This document shows positions 20,001 through 62,208 of a stretch of DNA of 64,000 nucleotides, in pieces. Below the pieces are notes generated by a model. That model ran no database searches. It saw only the letters and a program-made list of their open reading frames with translations, and was not told where the DNA came from. The stretch covers positions 9,525,031-9,589,030 of the forward strand of contig NC_049995.1 in NCBI RefSeq assembly GCF_000003815.2, given 5' to 3'. The stretch is from Branchiostoma floridae. Taxonomy: Eukaryota; Chordata; Leptocardii; Amphioxiformes; Branchiostomatidae. The stretch's first letter is position 1. The number at the start of each line of letters is the position of its first letter. Made by a program: the position numbers and the translations under genes.

Positions 20001-20768
20001 GGGTCGTTGGGCTTGACATCGTAACAGAGGCTAATGGCTGTTTGGTCTTGGACGGCCCCATTTTAGTTGAGGGGGTAATGTTGTAGGAAAACACATACTA
20101 AACTTATATGTCAGGAGGATATTATAATGGATTTATTTTGTGTATGAATTTCAAACAATATTTACAATATTACTGTAGCAGAACCTACAATATATAAGCA
20201 TCCAATTACAGTAAGTAAAAAGGCTGCCGAATCAACCCCCCTACGTTACGCTGTGGTACGTTCTCCTGGTGTTAGATTCATACGTACAAGTAGAAGTTTC
20301 CAATAACGAGCGAACCGACGGAGGCACAGTGGCGGTCTGGTCTTGGTGGACGTGCTGAGAGATTTTTTATTAATGGCGAGGTACAATTGAGTAAGGCCTT
20401 CGATATTGTCCTAGTAAAGGAACCCACCAATAAGGTGCCAGCCAGGAAATTTGAAATCGTTGAGTCTTTGACAGTTAGGCTTTTCGGGAAGTGAGAACGC
20501 GGCTTCGCGGTCTAGCTGAGCAAGACCAAACGGTCCTGGGAGCAAGTGGGTGTAGGGGGCCTTGTGCCGGCTGTCATTTATTGTCGCCGGCCTATCCTTA
20601 TATTTCCCGCGTTGAGCGAAGACGACCGCGAGCTTTCATTTTGGTACGTATTGTTTGTTTGATATGCATTTATTTCTTCATTCATTTATTTCTTATAATT
20701 ATCCTTTCCCTGAAAGAGGAATGCATTTTGTTTTTGCTGGTGTGATATTTTTATTTCTATTTCTCTCA
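17061..20768. other. AT-rich intergenic DNA with small repeats
   Basis: A short direct repeat (atttcacgaaaatt... aattatgcattttaaggg) occurs at about 18327 and 18366. An alternating tatacatata tract lies at 18185-18260. A locally GC-richer stretch, 20220-20660, has no recognised gene. I see no supported exon. Confidence 0.5.
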
Positions 20769-20910
20769 GCAGCCAATCAGAGCTTAGATATTACCTGTTG
20801 AGAAAATATGATCAATCTTAGCCAACCAGAGCTTAGTTAAGATATCAGCTGTGCGGCAGATATTAGCAACATTAGCCAATCATAGCTTGGATTGAATATT
20901 ACCTGTTTAT
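20769..20910. repeat. Three-copy repeat carrying CCAAT motifs
   Basis: The word 'agccaatcagagcttag' appears three times with variation (about 20770, 20820 and 20874), with 'atattacctgtt' following two of them. The spacing is about 50 and 55 bp. Each copy carries a CCAAT or near-CCAAT box. It could be a small tandem duplication with no function or a cluster of NF-Y type sites. I cannot tell which. Confidence 0.6.
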
Positions 20911-21289
20911 CAAATGCTTTTTACTCACAAACGATGCTGTGATGTTAATGTTATATCATTGTGAGCAAACAGTCTGACAAAAAGATACGGGTAAAACATT
21001 CGGCATTTTCCTTTAAATGTTCCTTTCTAGTTCTTCATAGATGTTTGATGCACTTTGATTGATCTGAGATAACATTTGTTTCACACTTCTGTACTTGGGT
21101 CTCTACGTTCGGGAGGAAATCTTGAAATACAATATAGTTTACCGCATTGATAACTGCTTTTAGCCAGTGTCTATAGACCACTGAGGTCCCTTTAATGAAA
21201 ATAAATAAATCATTCCATATCACTTGGGTTCTTACAATGTTTAAGGGGTAAGGGTAATTCTAATGTGGTTGTTGGTTGTATTTTATTTG

Positions 21290-22650
21290 CCCTGTCCTGG
21301 GTGCTGAGTGTGTTTCCCTGTCCCTTGTGCTGACTGTGTTTCCCTGTCCTGGTGCTGACTGTGTTTCCCCGTCCCTGTTGTTACCCAGGTTTCACTGTCC
21401 CTGGTGCTGACTGTCTTTCATTGTCCCTGGAGCTGACTGTCTTTCACTGTCCCTGGTGCTGTGTTTTCCTGTCCCTGGTGCTAACTGTGTTTTCCTGTCC
21501 CTGGTGCTGACTGTGTTTCCCTGTCCCTGTTGTTGACGATGTTTCACTGTCCCTGGTGCTGACTGTGTTTCCCTGTCCCTGGTGCTGACTGTGTTTCCCT
21601 GTCCTGGTGCTGACTGTGTTTCCCCGTCCCTGTGGTTAGCCAGGTTTCACTGTCCCTGGTGCTGACTGTCTTTCATTGTCCCTGGAGCTGACTGTCTTTC
21701 ACTGTGCCTGGTGCTGTGTTTTCCTGTCCCTGGTGCTAACTGTGTTTTCCTGTCCATGGTGCTGACTGTGTTTCCCTGTCCCTGTTGTTGACGATGTTTC
21801 ACTGTCCCTGGTGCTGACTGTGTTTCCCTGTCCCTGGTGCTGACTGTGTTTGCGCGTCCCTGTTGTTGACTATGTTTCCCTGTCCCTGACGATGTTTCCC
21901 TGTCCTTGGTGCTGAGTATGTTTCCCTGTCCCTGTTGCTGACTGTGTTTCCCTGTCCCTGGAGCTGACTGTCTTTCACTGTCCCTGGTGCTGACTATGTT
22001 TCCCTGTCCCTGGTGCTGACTGTGTTTCCCTGTCCCTGGTGCTGACTGTGTTTCCCTGTCCCTGGTGCTGACTGTGTTTCACTGTCCCTGGTCCTGACTG
22101 TGTTTCCCTGTCCCTGGTGCTGACTGTGTTTTCCTGTCCCTGGTGCTGACTGTGTTTCCCTGTCCATGTTGTTGACGATGTTTCACTGTCCTTGGTGCTG
22201 ACTGTGTTTCCCTGTCCCTGGTGCTAACTGTGTTTTCCTGTCCCTGGTGCTGACTGCGTTTCCCTGTCCCTGGTGCTGACTGTGTTTGTGCGTCCCTGTT
22301 GTTGACTATGTTTCCCTGTCCCTGTTGCTGACGATGTTTCCCTGTCCTTGGTGCTGAGTATGTTTCCCTGTCCCTGTTGCTGACTGTGTTTCCCTGTCCC
22401 TGGAGCTGACTGTCTTTCACTGTACCTGGTGCTGACTATGTTTCACTGTCCCTGGTCCTGACTGTGTTTCCCTGTCCCTGGTGCTGACTGTGTTTCACTG
22501 TCCCTGGTCCTGACTGTGTTTCCCTGTTCCTGGTGCTGACTGCGTTTCCCTGTCCCTGGTCTTGACCTTGCTTCCCTGTCCCTGGTCCTGACTGTGTTTC
22601 GTTGCCCCTTGTGGTGTGTTTTCCTGCTCCTGGTGCTGAAAAAAGTTTCC
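21290..22650. repeat. 26-bp minisatellite array with higher-order repeats
   Basis: The basic unit is 26 bp (ctgtccctggtgctgactgt + gtttcc), repeated about 50 times with substitutions and small indels. Longer blocks are themselves duplicated: the variant 'gtcctggtgctgactg' followed by 'tttccccgtccctg' recurs 255 bp apart (21346 and 21601), and a 'cgtccctgttgttgactatg' block recurs 436 bp apart (21855 and 22291). Because 26 is not a multiple of three, long open frames appear in the array by chance. Confidence 0.95.
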
Positions 22651-22997
22651 CTGTTTGTAACAAACTACTAGAGCCCAAGATTCCATTGGTGACAAGTTTA
22701 GAGCTACACATATGGATCGCTTAATGTATGGTATGAGCAGAAAACACTTTGACCTTTTCATGTCGAGTAGAAGCAGACAGAGGTTGACGACAAAAACATG
22801 ACGTGCGATATTTGAGCCTTGCTAGGAGAGGCTTGTTCGCCAGCTGGTATGCTGGGTGTAAGAGCGCTTGTCATGAAATCTCTTCCATTTACCAGTAAGA
22901 CGAAGCTGATGTTCGGTATCGGATAGCAGGGAAACCGGAAAAAACGGTTTACTGGTCTGCCGGTTATAAAAGCGCTTGTCATGAAATCTGTCAATAT
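22651..22997. mobile_element. Unclassified dispersed element splitting the minisatellite
   Basis: From about 22657 to 22946 this segment matches 23759-24056 closely: 'aacaaactactagagccc', 'ttaatgtatggtatgagcag', 'aaaacactttgaccttttca', 'agcgcttgtcatgaaatct', 'gaagctgatgttcggt'. The minisatellite runs up to it and resumes after it at about 22998, so it appears to be an insertion. The 'aagcgcttgtcatgaaatct' word occurs twice inside this copy. No coding domain was recognised. Confidence 0.7.
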
Positions 22998-23200
22998 CTA
23001 AGTTTCCCTGTCCCTGGCACTGACTGTGTTTCCCTGTCCCTGGTCCTGACCGTGTTTCCCTCTCTTTGACTGAGTTTCTGTGTCCCTTCTCCTGACTGTG
23101 TTACCCTCTCTCTGACGGAGTTTTTGTGTCCCTGGTGCTGACTGTGTTTCCTTGTCGCTTAATGTATTTCCAAGTCCCTAAGTGTGTTTCTCTGTCCATG
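22998..23200. repeat. Distal part of the 26-bp minisatellite
   Basis: Same unit family as 21290-22650 (tttccctgtccctggcactg), fading into diverged copies (ctctctttgactgagtttct) by about 23200. It continues the array after the element at 22651-22997. Confidence 0.85.
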
Positions 23201-23239
23201 ACAGTGTTTTCTGACTGTATAATCTAGTTGGTGAATTTT

Positions 23240-23430
23240 TTCGTTTTAGAACTAAATAAGCAATTTCTATCATTAACATGCAATCTACGATGAAGTACAC
23301 TTATTCCATGACAATTCATTACAGTATTCAAGGTACAACATTGACACATTCTTTAGGAGAACTATGTTTATGCTGTCCTAATTCAAACCATAATTTTTCA
23401 CTAATTCTTAGTTCAGCCATGCTACTTGAA
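23240..23430 (-). mobile_element. LINE 3' coding remnant (family A), degenerate
   Basis: It contains 'atttctatcattaacatgca', 'atctacgatgaagtacactt' and 'caacattgacacattcttta', matching the segment that encodes the Cys-rich tail in the copies at 13141-13640 and 14330-14720. The orientation is minus and the frame is broken. Confidence 0.55.
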
Positions 23431-23519
23431 AAAAAAAATAACGGTTCTTGGTGGGAAACCAGTGTATAGATGTTGGCATATTGGCGCACCAAATCCGTAG
23501 TGTGTTTTTTGGCACACAA

Positions 23520-23700
23520 TTAGATAGATTAGCCGAAGAGGCTCGGTGGGCGTCACTCCACCGTCAGGGGAAGTCGTGTAAAGTGCATTTCCCAAGGGCA
23601 CAACGTCGGGGCATGGTGGGAATCAAACTCGGAACCTTTCGATTCCGAGTCAAACGCTCTACTAGTTACGTCACATTAACGCCACCACTATGCTGCCTAC
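23520..23700 (-). mobile_element. tRNA-headed SINE fragment
   Basis: In reverse complement: a box A-like 'aactagtagagcgtttgac', a box B 'gagtttgattccca', then 'gttgtgcccttgggaaatgc' and 'actttacacgactt'. The same order (tRNA head, then the gtgcccttggga segment) is seen in the SINE at 51640-51840. The 5' end is near 23693 and the 3' part is truncated near 23525. Confidence 0.65.
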
Positions 23701-23754
23701 ATGTCTTGAATTCATAATTTTCAAATACTTCTTCTGTATTTGTTCTTTGGTCAA

Positions 23755-24060
23755 ACTTTGTATCAAACTTCTAGAGCCTAAAGCTCCATTGCTGACAAGT
23801 TTAGAGCTGTAAATATGAATTGCTTAATGTATGGTATGAGCAGAAAACACTTTGACCTTTTCATGTCGAGCAGAAGCAGACAGAGGTTGACCAGGGGAAA
23901 ATATGACGTGCGATATTTGAGCCTTGCTACTAGAGGCTTTTTTGCCAAATGGTATGCCGGGTGTAAAAGCGCTTGTCATGAAATCTGTCCATTTGCCAGT
24001 AGAACGAAGCTGATGTTCGGTGTTGGGTAACCGTTAAACCAGACAAAAACGGTCTACAAC
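23755..24060. mobile_element. Second copy of the unclassified dispersed element
   Basis: A close copy of 22657-22946, about 1.1 kb further on. Both copies end near a run of A/C followed by 'aacggt' and 'cta' or 'tta'. A 71-codon open frame in this copy is not preserved in the first, so coding function is not supported. Confidence 0.7.
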
Positions 24061-40746: not shown

Positions 40747-47290
<6,544 letters not shown>

Positions 47291-54328: not shown

Positions 54329-57300
54329 ATGTCTAGCGCGCGGAAAAGACGGGGACAGAATTCTCAGACAGCGAAACCGCATGCTGATAAGGAAAATAAT
54401 CTTCCAAAAGGCCCAGTGGAGGTTTGTAACATGTTATGTTTTTGAATGTTATTCGTCGTAATATATCATATATTTAAATACATATCCTAGTAATGTTATA
54501 TAACCGTGGTATAGACCAAACTGATCAAACTGAAAATGACCGATCAGTTGATTTTTTTGGTTTCCAAATATGTTGTCGTTAAATTTTTTGTGTTTTATAG
54601 GTTTTTGAGTATAAATAGCGAAGATATGACTATGAAATTATGAATTCGATGAATATCTTTTGTCAAGAATGAATGAATATGAGAGCATGGAGAATAGGTC
54701 AAAGACTGTAATAGGAATATTGGGGGCAGGATGATAAGAGGGAAGGGCACTAATATCAAAATTAGTGCCCTTCCCTCTTATCATAAGGCATATATCTACC
54801 CCCCACCCCCCTTATAATTTTTTTACATCACCCAATCTGTAATTACTTAGTACCTTCGTGTAGAATGTTGTGTTTGGACAAGAAGGTTAACAAAGCCTCC
54901 TTGGTTTGGGTTAGCGTTTGTTTGTGGTCTAGAAGTCTCATTTAAAAGGCCATGAACTTTAAATTTTAATTTGGTATGCAGTATAGTAGGCAGTGTCAAA
55001 GTAATGATTTTGTTGTTGTTGTTGTTGTCCTCGTTTAACGTCTATTATTTCGCTAGACGTGGCCTCTTGGTGCTGAGTAACACATGGTTTGCTTTTGAGT
55101 CAATAGTCTCTCTTGGTATTTAACTCTTGGTTTTTTTTGGGGGGCCCCCTAGAGGCTGTCCTAGACACTGCAGCAGAACTTCCCATTTTGTTATCCTGTT
55201 CTTCACAAGGTATTCAACAGCCATGGTAAACTGTTACTAGTAAAATATCAAAACAACAAAAGATATTCTTACCACAATATTATTGTAGACCAATGTTTGA
55301 TTCTCGTACCATTATTTTTTCCGCAATGTTGCAGACCTTTGACCCTCGTAGACGCGCCAAGCCACGGAGTTGGCTGTCCCGATGTATGAACATCGCCAAG
55401 TACATCCTGTTCGCTCTGTTCCTGCCGCCGTTCCTGAACTACACCGCTCTACTCAGGGAACAGGAGATCATGCAGCCTGAAGGTACATGTATTGTGTTTA
55501 GTTGGTGTGTTTGTTTATAAATATGTTGTGTTTTGTGTACTTAGTTGGGCAGACTGCCAGGATATAAGACAAGAATGGTGTAAAATTAAACATACTATAT
55601 TTGGTGAATTGTGATTGCACAAAGTTGTGTGGCCCAGGTATTGAAACCATGGACCATATGCATCTGGTGCACATGCAGGAAGGACTTAAACTCAAAACGT
55701 TTGAGGCCACTCATATGAATGCAAGGGAACCTAATTTTTAGAGCTTCTTTTATATATTGGCACTCTATGTCATAACTTTCCGTATCACACGGGTTCTAAG
55801 TTGTATCACACAGGCTTTCTTCGAGTAAATCGAACTATTTCAAACGGGCCGAATACGGCACGGTTGAAAATTCGAATACCGGATCAGGACGTTAGAATTG
55901 CTGTTGTTACAATTTTATGTTAGAGGACACAACATTTTCTCAACTTCTGGTACATTTCACATCTAATTATGTGTTTTCTCAGGTGGGTATGACATTAATA
56001 AAATACAACACGGTGTATTCCGCATCACCCTCGGCCCAAGCCCTCCCGTGGTTGGGCTGGTACCTCGGATCGGATACGGAATACACCGTGTTGTATTCTA
56101 TATCTATGTGATACCTGGGCCATACATACTAGTAATCTATGATGCAGGTGTTCTCAACCGGGTGATAACTTGGACACTACTGTTATCAGCCTTCCATAAA
56201 ACTATTCAAACTTTTTGAGTGTGCTATTGTCGATAATGATAATACTATTATACTTGGACTGGCACATTTTGAATTGAAGCATGTGTTTTCTTGGTTCAAG
56301 CCCTCCCTTGGTTCAGATCACCTTCCGGCCCTAAGCCGGATTTTACCCGCAGTCAGGCTTGTAACATGGTTGATACGGAAATGACGGACTACAGGGCTGA
56401 CGTCAGAGTTGCGTTGCGCGGTAGAGGGCAAAAATGGGAAGACGATTTGGGTGTGACTTAAAATCCTTGAAAATCCTTCTTTTCCTTGAAAATTTGTGCC
56501 CAATTTGTCTACTTTTTGAGTTAGAAGGGACAGGTAGGGCCTAAGCTTTCCTGTTTGGGTCAAAATTTGTTCAGTTTAGCAGTTTAGCTGGTGTCATGAC
56601 AGGTTTTAGTTATAGGGTGCTACCGGGTGTATCAGGAGGGAAAAGGGGTCAAAGGTGAGGTTTCTTTCATAGAGCGAGCTTTTCTCGGAGAATGAGCCGA
56701 ACAACCCTCTGTTTTCTTTGAATGTTAAAAATATAAACTAGACCCAAGTGACTTTCTGGTGGAGAAGAATTTTTAAGATTGAACTATGGGTTAGTACTTT
56801 TTTGAAGCCTTCATTCAGTGTATTTCAACATGCTTGTCAATGGGCAGCCCTAACTTCGATGTCTGACCTACACTGTGTTTTATTCTATGTTTTGTTGTAA
56901 CTTGTGTACTTATGCTTGTTCATTTTGCATTGCCCTGGTAAACCAATCATTCTTTTTCATAACAGTGTTATACTGTTAATGTACAAGCTGCATTTATAAG
57001 TCCTGAGGGTAAAGTTTGATCCTCTCACACTATGAGACTTTGAGACTTTGAGACACTAGGATGGTCCCCTACTTTTTTCAATACATGCTGTGGGATCTGT
57101 AAGTTAAGTGTAACAGGTTAGGACACTGTACAGACAAGGAAAAGTCCACAAAACTCGCTTGTTATATTTGTATGCAGTTTAGATCATCAATGTTCTCTTA
57201 TACCTTTCTGCAGGAGACTTTGTTGACATAGGGGAGGGACAGAAAATGTTCATCAACTGTAAGGGAAGAGGTGCCCCCTCAGGTTAGTTTTGTTTGTTGA

Positions 57301-60300
57301 CATTTGGTGGCATTTCCTAAGGAGAGGTGCCTTTCCATGTCATCTTCATCTGTGTCTGTATATCCCATATAACCTCTCTTTGGTTTGGCACACCAGCTTC
57401 TGCATCCTACATACCTGTGTTTTGTTGTTAAAAAACACCAGCTTCTTTATCTGTATAGCCTTTTGGTGTAGCGCTCTAGTTTCTGTATCTGTGTAGCCTA
57501 CATAACACCAAGTGTAACACCACCGTGAAAGTTTTGTAGATAGGTATAGCTGTTATAATTGTCCTTTGGTATAACACACAGCTGGCTTTGCAGGCACATG
57601 GTATGGCAGCAGCTGGTTATATTACACTGAGCGACTTGTCATATATAACCTTTGATGATGCCTTCAATTTTTTTAGTACTTATGGATGCGGGAACTGGGA
57701 TGACATCTGACGTTTGGGAAATTATACAGCTAGAGCTGGCCAAAAGTACCAGGGTACGTGGACAAATTTTTTTTACCACACCATTTCAATTTGTTGATTC
57801 TCCAAATCAGTTGTCAAAAGCATTTTGGGTATACAGTCAAACCTGTCTATAGTGGCCACTCAAGGGACCAGACAAATGTGGCCACTATAGACAGGTGGCC
57901 TCTGTATAGAGGTGGCAACTTGTAGATAAAATACCCAAGGGACCGACAAAAAGTGGCCACTATGGGCAGGTGGCCCTTCTGTAGAGGTGGCCCGTAATAC
58001 AGGTTTGACTGTATTTGACATGATTGTTATGATTTTTGCAGGTATGTGTGTATGACAGGGCAGGCCTAGGATATAGTGACGTCCCACCTCCGGTATGTTA
58101 CACCATTTCTGTTGTTTTGATGTTTTTTTTACATACAAGCAGAACCCAAGCATTGGACCTGTGATATAAGATCCAAGCAAAAGCACCCCTGCAGTGCCTG
58201 AGCAATCTGCTAGGGGACCCAAACCTACACCACTTATTCCTTACATCAAGAGTAATTGACAATGAAAAAAATAAGATTATAGCATGTCCTAGAAAATGAT
58301 ACAAAGACTGGTTGCTGCAATAAACCATGTCATAATGTACACCAACACTCAAGAATTCTGGTAAAATTGATAACTAAAGATATATATATTCAAAGAATTG
58401 TTATAAACCATGAATTGTGATAAATTATGCTTCAGCACCAAGGACATAGCCAACATTCAAGCATTTTGTCAAACTGTGATATATCAGGGCATATATGTAA
58501 ACAGGACAAATGTATTTTGATAATCTAAAAAATGTGATAAACCAAGTGATAATGCTTCAGCACCAAGATTGTAACCAATATTATACTTTTCAGGGTGTTG
58601 AAAGTAGATCGCAGCCGCACACTATCGAAAGGTAATGTTGGCAGCTTAACTCAACTACAAAATTCGATGAGAGTTCAACCAATGAGAGCATGGCAATTAG
58701 CAGTTCAACCAATGAGAGAGTGCCTGCATGCCTGTCAAATATTTTGTAATTCCAAATTTTAATATGGTCGGTGTTAATGTAAGATTTACGGTGTTTGGTG
58801 TTAACGACATTTGGGTTTGCGTGCACGAAGAGTCTCTTTATTCAGTGAAGTACCAAACTGATAAAACTATTTACGAACATTTATATTATTTTTTACGTAC
58901 ACAGGATGGCAGACAACCTTCACCAAGTCTTGCAGCAGAAGAAGGAGATCAAGAAACCTCTGATCCTGGTTGGTGCTGAGATCGGCGCTCTGGTTACCAG
59001 ATTTTATGCGCAAATGCACGATGTGTAAGTGACAAAATATTACCATATTTCCTGCTGAAGAAAAACAAACCTTTACCATTTTTTCTCTTCTATTCATCTA
59101 AGAAAATAATATTGTGTGCGTACATGCTTTTACCTAGGATTTTTCTATAGCGGGGGGGGGGGGTATAGGTGTAAGTATTATAAGGGGGTTTGCGGGCATC
59201 CACCTTCCTGAGTTTTAGAGAATTTTAAGTTAAAATGGTGCATTCTAAGGTATCCAAGGGACAAAGTTACTGTTACTGAGGTCACAGTAGAAGACTGTGA
59301 CCAAGGATTACCTAGTGCCATCCCTGGTCAATCAGAATTTCATGCTTGTCAGAGGATCTGATCCCCAGTGCAAGAACATCTTGTGCGTCCAATTTTTTGT
59401 TATCTTTAGAACAGCGCATCCAACAGTTGCTTGGACGCATGCATGTTTGGACATATAACATTCAACAGTTAAAAAAAAAATTTAACTCAAGTTTCTCTAA
59501 AAGATTAGAGTAACAGTTCTTGACTCACCTTGAAGTTGAAGCTTTTACATATTTCCCATTACAATTTATTCTTCACAGTTATGAATTTCTTGCATCATTT
59601 TATCACAGTGACATCCTGGGTCTTGTGCAGATAGAACCACTAGTGGAAAACCTGTTCTTAGTGGACGGAGGCGTCTGGGTACAGTACTGGTGAGTATGGG
59701 AGTTTTCTTTTACACTACCAGAAAGTCTCACCTACTATACACACATTTTTATGCCTATCAGACATCTTTCTTTAAGCTTTTCAGGGTTTAACAAGTTTTC
59801 TAAAATTCACTTGTCCTATTGGGCAAGTACATAAAAAATTTACTGACCTGAACTAACTTTTCACTTGCCTGAAATTGAAGTAACATTTTGCACAGTATGT
59901 ATTTTTGCTTCCAGGGATGGAATTATTTTATTATTGCCTCTTTTTTTTTCTATGTTCAGACCCTTGCTTGATGTCATGACTGTAAAAATCTCACTCAGGG
60001 AAAAATCTTACTTGCCCAGTCGGACAAATGGCGTAGGACATGCACTTGCCCAATCAGCACTTTAACTTGCCCGGGATAATCAGACTAGTGGACTTTTACT
60101 TTTACTTTTACTCTGGCTTTTTACTTTAATTTGTGCTGCATTTCAAGACTTAAAATACACACTAGTAAGTTCTAAATAAAGAAGAAGAGGAACAGCTATA
60201 CCAGCAAAAACAATATATTTCCTCTATGCTCTGTGTAGAGGGAAACATAAATTCTTCATCTGTAGCTTACTCCTAGGTTATTAGACTTTTGAAAAATGAC

Positions 60301-62208
60301 AGTTGAGGATTTGTTCTCTTTTCAGGTACCACCAATTGCTGATGTCCCTACAAGCGCTACAGTTCTCTGCTGCGATTGGCTTCACAAGGTTTGCACTGAT
60401 TGTTGGCATGGTTGATCAACCAATCGCAGGGGAGTTAACATCTAGCAGTGTCCAAATCAGACAGGTGTGTTTATGAAACCTTGTCTTTCTTTTTGCTCTC
60501 CCAGTTTTGGAATCTGTATTGTTCATCCAGTATGCAGCTGGCCTATTGACTAATAATTGATACACCAGCTTTGCAGGCCCACTAGGCAGTAACAGTTTAT
60601 CTCACACTGACAGGAAGCAAAGTTCAGAGTTGTCAGAATTAGTAATTTTTAACTTGGTGTTGACATCTGAAAGACATCCTAGGTTATGTTTGAGTTTATT
60701 TACATGTAGATCATGTGGTGAATGAAAGAATCCTTCACCATTTATCAAACTATCCTCCTTAATCTTTTAAAGCATAATCCTACATATAAAGATAAAGTTA
60801 GACATACGTCAAAAAGCAGTTACTCAAGCAACTAGTAAGATATGATTTTGGAAACGGTCAGACGTTTCAGATGTCATCCACCATCTTTCGTCAGTGACAC
60901 TGAAGTGATCCGGGAGAAACTGGTCTTTTACCCTAACTATGAGTGCAAAAGAGCTGAAGACAGACAATGTCAAAGTTAGACATATTTTTTGGTGTACTTG
61001 TGACACATAAAAAATGATTACTTCTTTTTTATGGCAGAAATACCTACTATGCCAGCCAAGACATCTCAGTGCTGCAGTGGACGAACACTATTTCATCAAC
61101 AGCAGCTTCTCTCAAATAAGGTGAGTTTATGATCATTATGTTTTGAACAAAGTCTCGTGATGTTTAAAAAAAAAGAATTTGACTCATCTACTTTTCTGAA
61201 TATCTAAATATTGTTTGCTTGGATGTCTAACCTTCATGAACACATCTACTTTGAATGTCTGTTTTTAGCACTTTATGGACGATGAAGTCATTCCTGAAAA
61301 ACATCTCAGTAACTGTCATCAACGGAAACTATTACGATGAACAGCTTCCACCTGAGCTGAACAGGGTAAGTCTCAAAAACAGCTTATTCCACATTAAAGG
61401 CATCATGTCTCTTACCTTTCATGTTGAATGTTCACCTGTCACACGGGCCTAACAGCTTTGCTAAAGTTTTGTTTTAAGTTTCGAAATGTTTTTAAAGCAA
61501 ACCCTTTCTTAACAACAGAAAATTATATGAAAAACGGAAAAAAAGCTATAGTCAAGATCTGTATCCGTATGGGATAGCAGCTATTTATGGTACACTGAAC
61601 AACCAGTCACACTTAACTTGCATGTAATTGCACATCTACTTGCAAGTGTACCATTATGAGCCAACTAGAATGTACCTATAGTGCCCCTAATAAATGTTTT
61701 TTTTTGGCAACGAGTTCCCCTTTTCCCATTTACAATAAGATGTTAGTTCTAAAAGGGGAAACTTTTTGAAGAAACACTTTTGTTAAATCTGCTTCTTGAA
61801 GGGAATGATTATTTCTTCTTATTACCTCTGTAAAAACAGACATATTATAGGTGTAATAGGATACCTGGAGAATTGGATAATCTTGTTTGGCTATGCTCCA
61901 AAGTTGTAGACAAACAAGAAGTATTGACTCCATGACTACACCCCTAGAGATATGTCTGGGCTATGTATAGGGGTAGCAATTTAGAACTAGATTTTCTCGA
62001 GTTTTAACGTTTTTACGCTGTTTGTTCGCAGGCGTGGGCAAAAGCCCAGCAGCACCTGATATCGAATGTCCACCCCGGCTGCAAGCACATCGTGGTCAAC
62101 GGCGCTGACCGCCACATGCTGTACAAGAGCCCCAGCTCTGTGGTCAACCCTGTCCTGAGACTGGTCAGACAGTGGAAACACTCCAACAGGGAAGCCAAGA
62201 GACAATAA
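54329..62208 (+). CDS. Membrane-anchored alpha/beta-hydrolase-fold protein, nucleophile Ser replaced by Glu
   Basis: Twelve GT-AG exons give 390 residues: 54329-54421, 55335-55482, 57214-57282, 57677-57753, 58042-58092, 58594-58631, 58905-59024, 59609-59689, 60326-60464, 61038-61120, 61269-61365, 62032-62208. An in-frame TAA at 54323 fixes the start. Residues 1-50 are basic and polar; 51-71 (IAKYILFALFLPPFLNY) form one membrane segment, so the rest probably faces a single side as a signal-anchored domain. The fold signatures are 'VLMDAGTG' (104-111, oxyanion strand-loop), 'VYDRAGLGYSD' (about 132-142), the elbow 'LILVGAEIGALV' (178-189) and 'NGADRHMLY' (355-363), with H360 at the usual catalytic histidine position. 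The elbow is G-A-E-I-G, so the serine expected in G-x-S-x-G is E184. It may be a non-classical or inactive hydrolase. I recognise the fold but no named human orthologue. Confidence 0.9.
54731..54784. repeat. Perfect 24-bp hairpin in hydrolase-like intron 1
   Basis: The arm 54731-54754 (atgataagagggaagggcac + taat) pairs perfectly with 54761-54784 around a 6-base loop (atcaaa). Such perfection suggests a recent origin or selection. If transcribed with the intron it would form a stable stem. Confidence 0.9.
55005..55075. repeat. (TTG)n tract in intron 1
   Basis: A short 'ttgttgttgttgttg' run followed by 'tcctcgtttaacgtctatt' and 'cgctagacgtggcc'. The second part resembles, inverted, the 'gacgttaaa' body word of the SINEs and may be a SINE remnant. 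Confidence 0.35.
56002..56098. repeat. Inverted repeat in hydrolase-like intron 2
   Basis: 'aatacaacacggtgtattcc' at 56002 pairs with 'ggaatacaccgtgttgtatt' ending at 56098. The middle (gcccaagccctcccg / gttgggctggtacctcgg) is partly complementary. It is probably a small MITE. Confidence 0.75.
56400..56790. repeat. Dispersed repeat, copy 2 (intron 2)
   Basis: Homologous to 38345-38730 in the same orientation: 'gttgcgttgcgcggt', 'ttttccttgaaaatttgtgc', 'gacaggtagggcctaagc', 'ggggtcaaaggtgaggtttc', 'gagcttttctcggag', 'gactttctggtggag'. Confidence 0.65.
57831..58014. mobile_element. MITE with ATACAGTCAAACCTGT terminal inverted repeats
   Basis: The left end 'atacagtcaaacctgt' (57831-57846) is inverted at 57999-58014. 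The interior consists of 'gtggccactatag', 'caggtggcc' and 'agggacc' words repeated and inverted. It occupies intron 4 of the hydrolase-like gene and ends 28 bp before exon 5, so it overlaps or sits next to the branch-point region. A half-copy lies at 49840-49930. Confidence 0.85.
58318..58594. repeat. Diverged direct repeats in intron 5
   Basis: 'gataaattatgcttcagcac' with 'caaggacatagccaacattc' recurs as 'gtgataatgcttcagcacca' with 'agattgtaaccaatatt', about 130 bp apart. A third weak form (ataaaccatgtcataatg, caccaacactcaag) lies upstream at 58320. Confidence 0.5.
59810..60075. repeat. Repeat with 'cacttgccc' words in intron 8
   Basis: Words of the form 'cacttgtcctattgggcaag', 'cttgcccagtcggacaaat' and 'acttgcccaatcagc' recur within 260 bp in this intron, some inverted. 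Probably a decayed transposon; the class is unknown. Confidence 0.4.
60815..60905 (-). repeat. Dispersed repeat, copy 2 (intron 9)
   Basis: The reverse complement matches 9336-9425: 'cactgacgaaagatggtgga', 'catctgaaacgtctgaccgt', 'ttccaaaatcatatct', 'gttgcttgagtaactgc'. It lies within intron 9 of the hydrolase-like gene. Confidence 0.65.

Follow-up and report, generated by a model that had tools for sequence, protein, structure and literature searches.

The question raised by this locus is whether a protein that has the alpha/beta-hydrolase fold and carries Glu at the place of the nucleophile Ser is still an enzyme. The gene lies on the plus strand at positions 54329-62208 of the window, that is, of the whole analyzed stretch of 64,000 nt from Branchiostoma floridae (NC_049995.1).

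The gene consists of 12 exons and 11 introns, all of the GT-AG type, with a coding sequence of 1173 nt and a protein of 390 aa (Table 1). Exon borders were chosen by eye; the joins, the reading frame and the GT-AG borders were verified by a script. The statement of the sequence-only reading that the frame is intact through 12 exons, and that the gene is thus not decayed, is confirmed by these in-frame joins. Exon 7, exactly delimited by AG/GT borders, is open in one of the three forward frames, the other two holding stops, and encodes the elbow VGAEIGAL. Any Ser codon is two or three base changes away from GAG, the codon of E184.

Table 1. Exons of the gene (positions in the window) and the features that they encode
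Feature	Position	Strand	Content	Basis
Exon 1	54329..54421	+	start codon and N-terminal tail, aa 1-31	ATG, GT donor, frame
Exon 2	55335..55482	+	basic stretch, hydrophobic segment (about aa 49-71), linker	
Exon 3	57214..57282	+	hydrolase core begins (GDFVDIGEGQKMFINCKGRGAPS)	gene model and family profile
Exon 4	57677..57753	+	oxyanion-loop motif MDAGTG, aa 106-111	gene model and family alignment
Exon 5	58042..58092	+	YDRAGLGYSD motif	gene model and family alignment
Exon 6	58594..58631	+		gene model
Exon 7	58905..59024	+	elbow VGAEIGAL; E184 at 58978-58980	Ser in 44/44 relatives
Exon 8	59609..59689	+	E208 at 59634-59636, column after strand beta-6	
Exon 9	60326..60464	+	cap region	gene model
Exon 10	61038..61120	+	cap region with E288; sequon N293	
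Exon 11	61269..61365	+	strand beta-7 region; sequon N311	
Exon 12	62032..62208	+	R359 (62110-62112) in the catalytic-His column, H360 (62113-62115) adjoining; stop codon	

Two introns hold inverted repeats. In intron 1 there is a perfect hairpin (54731-54784), its two 24-base arms separated by 6 bases, and in intron 2 the arms are 29 bases long, 93% complementary and 46 bases apart (55998-56101); the latter repeat is possibly a small transposable element of the palindromic type. Elsewhere in the window, an open frame at 42974-43360 of the plus strand, part of an upstream gene, matches the PRDM2 PR domain (Pfam PRDM2_PR, E 4.9e-21), and C2H2 zinc fingers at 45868-46317 of the same strand possibly belong to the same PRDM-like gene. 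On the minus strand, two open frames at 21647-22435 are built from degenerate tandem units such as GQGNTVSTRDRETQSAPGT; they sit in the strongly AT-skewed stretch 20001-24000 and look like a minisatellite.

The gene is the only copy found in its own genome. The search with exon 7 (513,431,437 bases, 431 contigs) gave one match, and the search with the 390-aa protein gave 11 matches, all inside this gene; these searches score the best candidates only, and distant paralogues may be missed. A Ser-type relative from a Nostoc plasmid (L001), used as a query against the same genome, matched weakly at two places (E values of 0.26 and 0.42). One of them is an exon with GHSFGG, which we take to resemble ABHD4/ABHD5, while nothing recognisable was found in the other.

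If the exon, the frame or the base calls were wrong, the true protein could have Ser at the elbow. The borders, being picked by eye from the DNA alone, leave some room for such an artefact, but its probability is close to negligible given the single open forward frame of exon 7, the in-frame GT-AG joins of all 12 exons, the single copy of exon 7 in the genome, and the match to the family HMM (described below), which runs through this exon. Moreover, there is no other elbow-like G-x-S-x-G that could serve in its place: the pattern G-x-[S/D/C]-x-[G/A] has four matches on the plus strand between 57000 and 62208, none of them elbow-like.

The alpha/beta-hydrolase fold proposed from the DNA is supported by the Pfam profile Abhydrolase_1, which matches the protein at 30.4 bits (above the cut-off of 25.8), and by the family profile. 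The relatives found in the plasmid and GTDB searches are bacterial hydrolases. On plasmids, tblastn identified 67 records; among the 40 of these 67 that were listed, the top bit score belongs to a Nostoc plasmid, with 45% identity over residues 1-133 of the core used as the query. The scan of GTDB genomes identified 38 loci, of which 15 have cyanobacterial names, and the best matches are among these 15. Two scans of viral contigs yielded no relatives. The patterns used in the GTDB scan were derived from an alignment in which this protein was included, and they span residues 89-97 and 100-108, which has to be kept in mind when the conservation of these positions is considered.

The family alignment (MAFFT) comprises 44 relatives, namely all 38 loci from GTDB together with 6 of the 67 records from plasmids; five of the aligned relatives (L001, L025, L048, L050, L052) are flagged as short or open-ended. 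The highest-identity relative among the matches listed, L001, is a short gene of 181 residues, which stops before reaching the cap, and its plasmid is typed as mobilizable. A profile made from the 44 relatives alone gives a match of 184 bits to this protein (HMMER, filters off), spanning aa 42-381, and therefore the relation takes in the cap and the N-terminal segment. This comparison shows kinship with the bacterial family along the hydrophobic N-terminal segment, the cap and the C-terminal helix. The DRAG and oxyanion-loop motifs, described as retained when only the DNA had been read, are indeed present: YDRAG is kept, and the G109 column of MDAGTG is invariant (44/44), though a part of MDAGTG also served as a scan pattern. 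In the cap, E288 is kept as well, the column having Glu in 38 of the 42 relatives with a letter there.

The N-terminal membrane anchor had been considered an addition to the hydrolase domain, and this does not agree with the family data, since 39 of the 42 relatives measured (2 of the 44 were left out) carry a hydrophobic N-terminal segment, defined by a Kyte-Doolittle value of at least 1.6 in a 19-residue window. For the segment of this protein the values are 1.34 in a 19-residue window and 1.8 in a 17-residue window, so that its anchor would be, if anything, weaker than in most relatives. The tail in front of it is basic (13 Lys/Arg vs 4 Asp/Glu in residues 1-48) and longer than in relatives with cyanobacterial names, where the Asp of VDIG is found at 42-71, compared to 85 here; in some other relatives, whose starts were chosen mechanically, it is found as far as 121. 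Glycosylation sequons are observed at N66, N293 and N311, of which N66 falls within the hydrophobic segment or at its border. The basic tail and the sequons are weakly compatible with a type II membrane protein, whose domain would face the lumen or the outside.

The alignment shows that all three positions of the catalytic triad differ from those of the relatives. The column of E184 contains Ser in all 44 relatives, in agreement with the original reading of Glu for the nucleophile Ser in the VGAEIGAL elbow. The column of E208 contains Asp in 42 relatives and Glu in two, and the column of R359 contains His in 39, with one residue masked (L038) and four relatives having no letter (L001, L025, L030, L048). 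Hence the site is Glu-Glu-Arg (E184, E208, R359) vs Ser-Asp-His in the relatives. In the predicted model of the Komarekiella relative L019 (pLDDT 92) the columns of E184 and E208 immediately follow beta-5 and beta-6, respectively, and that of R359 lies in the loop behind beta-8.

The acid position deserves separate consideration. The two relatives with Glu in this column (L039, L040) have Ser and His intact, and therefore E208 alone argues nothing. A catalytic acid after beta-7 was considered and rejected: in 20 relatives, no column between beta-7 and beta-8 that is invariant or conserved at the 90% level is acidic, and the most acidic columns at 300-349 in the 44 relatives, those of P328 (20/33) and H340 (31/41), are not acidic in this protein. 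As there is no acidic conserved column after beta-7, we infer that the catalytic acid of the family lies after beta-6.

The histidine was assigned differently when only the DNA had been read, H360 being then considered the retained catalytic residue. This assignment is not supported, because R359 occupies the catalytic-His column ungapped in MAFFT, HMMER and hhalign, and H360 adjoins it. In pairwise local alignments with the 40 relatives that have a letter in this column, His is paired with R359 in 21 cases, with H360 in one and with other residues in two, while in the remaining 16 (masked L038 included) the column is unaligned. Four relatives (L052, L053, L055, L056) carry A-[ND]-H-M, resembling A-D-R-H-M of this protein, and a one-residue register shift could place H360 in the His column; H360 is thus kept as a minor possibility.

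The changes are not limited to these positions. At least 90% of the relatives agree in 43 columns, and this protein keeps 28 of them and departs from the other 15. When the columns under the scan patterns are set aside, 37 remain, with 23 kept and 14 changed, the triad columns still being among the changed ones. The 15 changed columns include the three of the triad and two neighbours in the elbow, where H183 and G187 are both replaced by Ala. The other ten are G62P, T103S, R155H, L167V, V201I, L206Q, P265S, P313S, L345V and S346H; four of these replacements are mild and six are not, and therefore the change extends beyond the active site. Judging by the retained and altered residues, we read this pattern as preservation of the fold and release from catalysis.

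This pattern also bears on the age of the replacement. Glu could be confined to the species or its lineage, with Ser kept in the orthologues of other animals; the animal sample is one genome, and all 44 aligned bacterial relatives keep Ser, as would be expected for such a local change. We nevertheless consider it rather unlikely, since the alteration of the His column and of both elbow neighbours suggests that the protein has long been without catalysis, and GAG is at least two substitutions away from Ser. Glu184 may be under selection in animals. Joint conservation of Glu and Arg among animals would mark the replacement as old and functional, and its lack would mark it as a local loss.

An enzyme with a changed mechanism would use the carboxylate of E184 as the nucleophile, E208 as the charge-relay acid and H360 as the base after the one-residue shift. 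Asp acts as such a carboxylate nucleophile in haloalkane dehalogenases and in epoxide hydrolases of the Cif type. In the sequence search of solved chains, Cif-type entries head the best 60 of 95 matches, with GAEIG paired with their Asp-bearing AHDIG, so that E184 aligns with the elbow Asp, and E208 is paired with a Glu that is presumably Glu153 of Cif. In the Cfl1/Cfl2 paper, Cif Glu153 is treated as the charge-relay acid (PMC8244358). Moreover, many dehalogenases and epoxide hydrolases are found among the structural neighbours of the family model, and H360, as was already mentioned, adjoins the His column and lies in a stretch similar to the A-[ND]-H-M motif of four relatives. On the other hand, Glu is one methylene longer than Asp, all three alignment methods place Arg in the His column, and the papers retrieved in a literature search for a Glu nucleophile deal with Asn and Gly replacements. 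Arg in the His column shifts the balance from a changed mechanism towards loss of catalysis; we regard the former as unlikely.

Engineered dehalogenases with a mutated His can retain the ester intermediate, which suggests one more scheme, a natural covalent trap used a single time, in which Glu184 would be alkylated by a reactive small molecule (an epoxide or a halide) and the ester would be kept, as Arg replaces His. By its title, the PDB entry 8sdd (H274N with a D107-glycolyl intermediate) is such a His mutant holding an ester intermediate. Were this trap real, the protein would serve to sense or scavenge such molecules covalently instead of turning them over; this reading seems very improbable to us.

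Hence, the gene probably encodes a membrane-tethered pseudoenzyme with the alpha/beta-hydrolase fold and a binding role, related to bacterial Ser-Asp-His hydrolases. Of the two options initially left open, a pseudoenzyme or a changed mechanism, the former is the better one. The argument given for this pair of options, that the histidine is kept and the serine lost, is not supported, as the column contains Arg. We infer the mechanism and the function of the protein as follows. Acyl-enzyme chemistry requires a nucleophile activated by His; with the nucleophile and His both absent from the aligned columns, a pairing of Glu184 with Arg359 in place of the Ser-His pair is the most economical assumption. 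The two residues would form a salt bridge that holds the loops of the elbow together and stabilises the site without acyl-enzyme chemistry. The protein would be inserted in the type II orientation, with the domain toward the lumen or the outside, and the retained pocket or surface would bind a ligand or a partner protein, as happens in further proteins of this fold that lack enzymatic activity.

Several alpha/beta-hydrolases without enzymatic activity, among them neuroligins, NDRG proteins and ABHD5, have important roles in binding and signalling in animals. The kin of this protein are bacterial hydrolases with a hydrophobic N-terminus, such as those of Komarekiella (L019) and of the Nostoc and Gloeothece plasmids (L001 and L002, both annotated as "alpha/beta hydrolase"). 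The order of the parts is the same, namely the hydrophobic N-terminus (below 1.6 here in the 19-residue window), VDIG, MDAG, YDRAG, the elbow, the cap with the conserved Glu, and the C-terminal helix; the difference is in the site, Glu/Glu/Arg here vs Ser/Asp/His there (Glu as the acid in 2 of 44). In open-access papers no description of this gene was found, which does not prove that none exists, nor was Glu found at the elbow position. Cif-type epoxide hydrolases (PMC8244358) also have a carboxylate at the elbow and Glu at the aligned place after beta-6, but their elbow residue is Asp, and the catalytic His is kept there, whereas Arg occupies its column here.

Loss of triad residues is already known in alpha/beta-hydrolases. 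NDRG3 (PMC7022630) has the fold with the triad residues replaced and is called non-enzymatic by the authors of the paper, who name neuroligins beside it; the latter, too, are alpha/beta-hydrolases that have lost triad residues. The protein studied here differs from the NDRG family, the Pfam Ndr match being weak (15.9 bits, below the cut-off of 23.3). According to PMC9694394, the animal alpha/beta-hydrolase ABHD5 (CGI-58) has Asn instead of the elbow Ser, with Asp and His present in the predicted triad, while in this protein Glu is at the elbow and Arg in the His column. DPP10, a member of a peptidase family, is an inactive alpha/beta-hydrolase with Ser replaced by Gly and with His and Asp present (PMC4350108), compared to Glu, Glu and Arg here. 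Against this background, the Glu-Glu-Arg replacement makes the amphioxus gene a further candidate for a non-enzymatic member of the fold, from a family whose bacterial relatives carry the intact triad.
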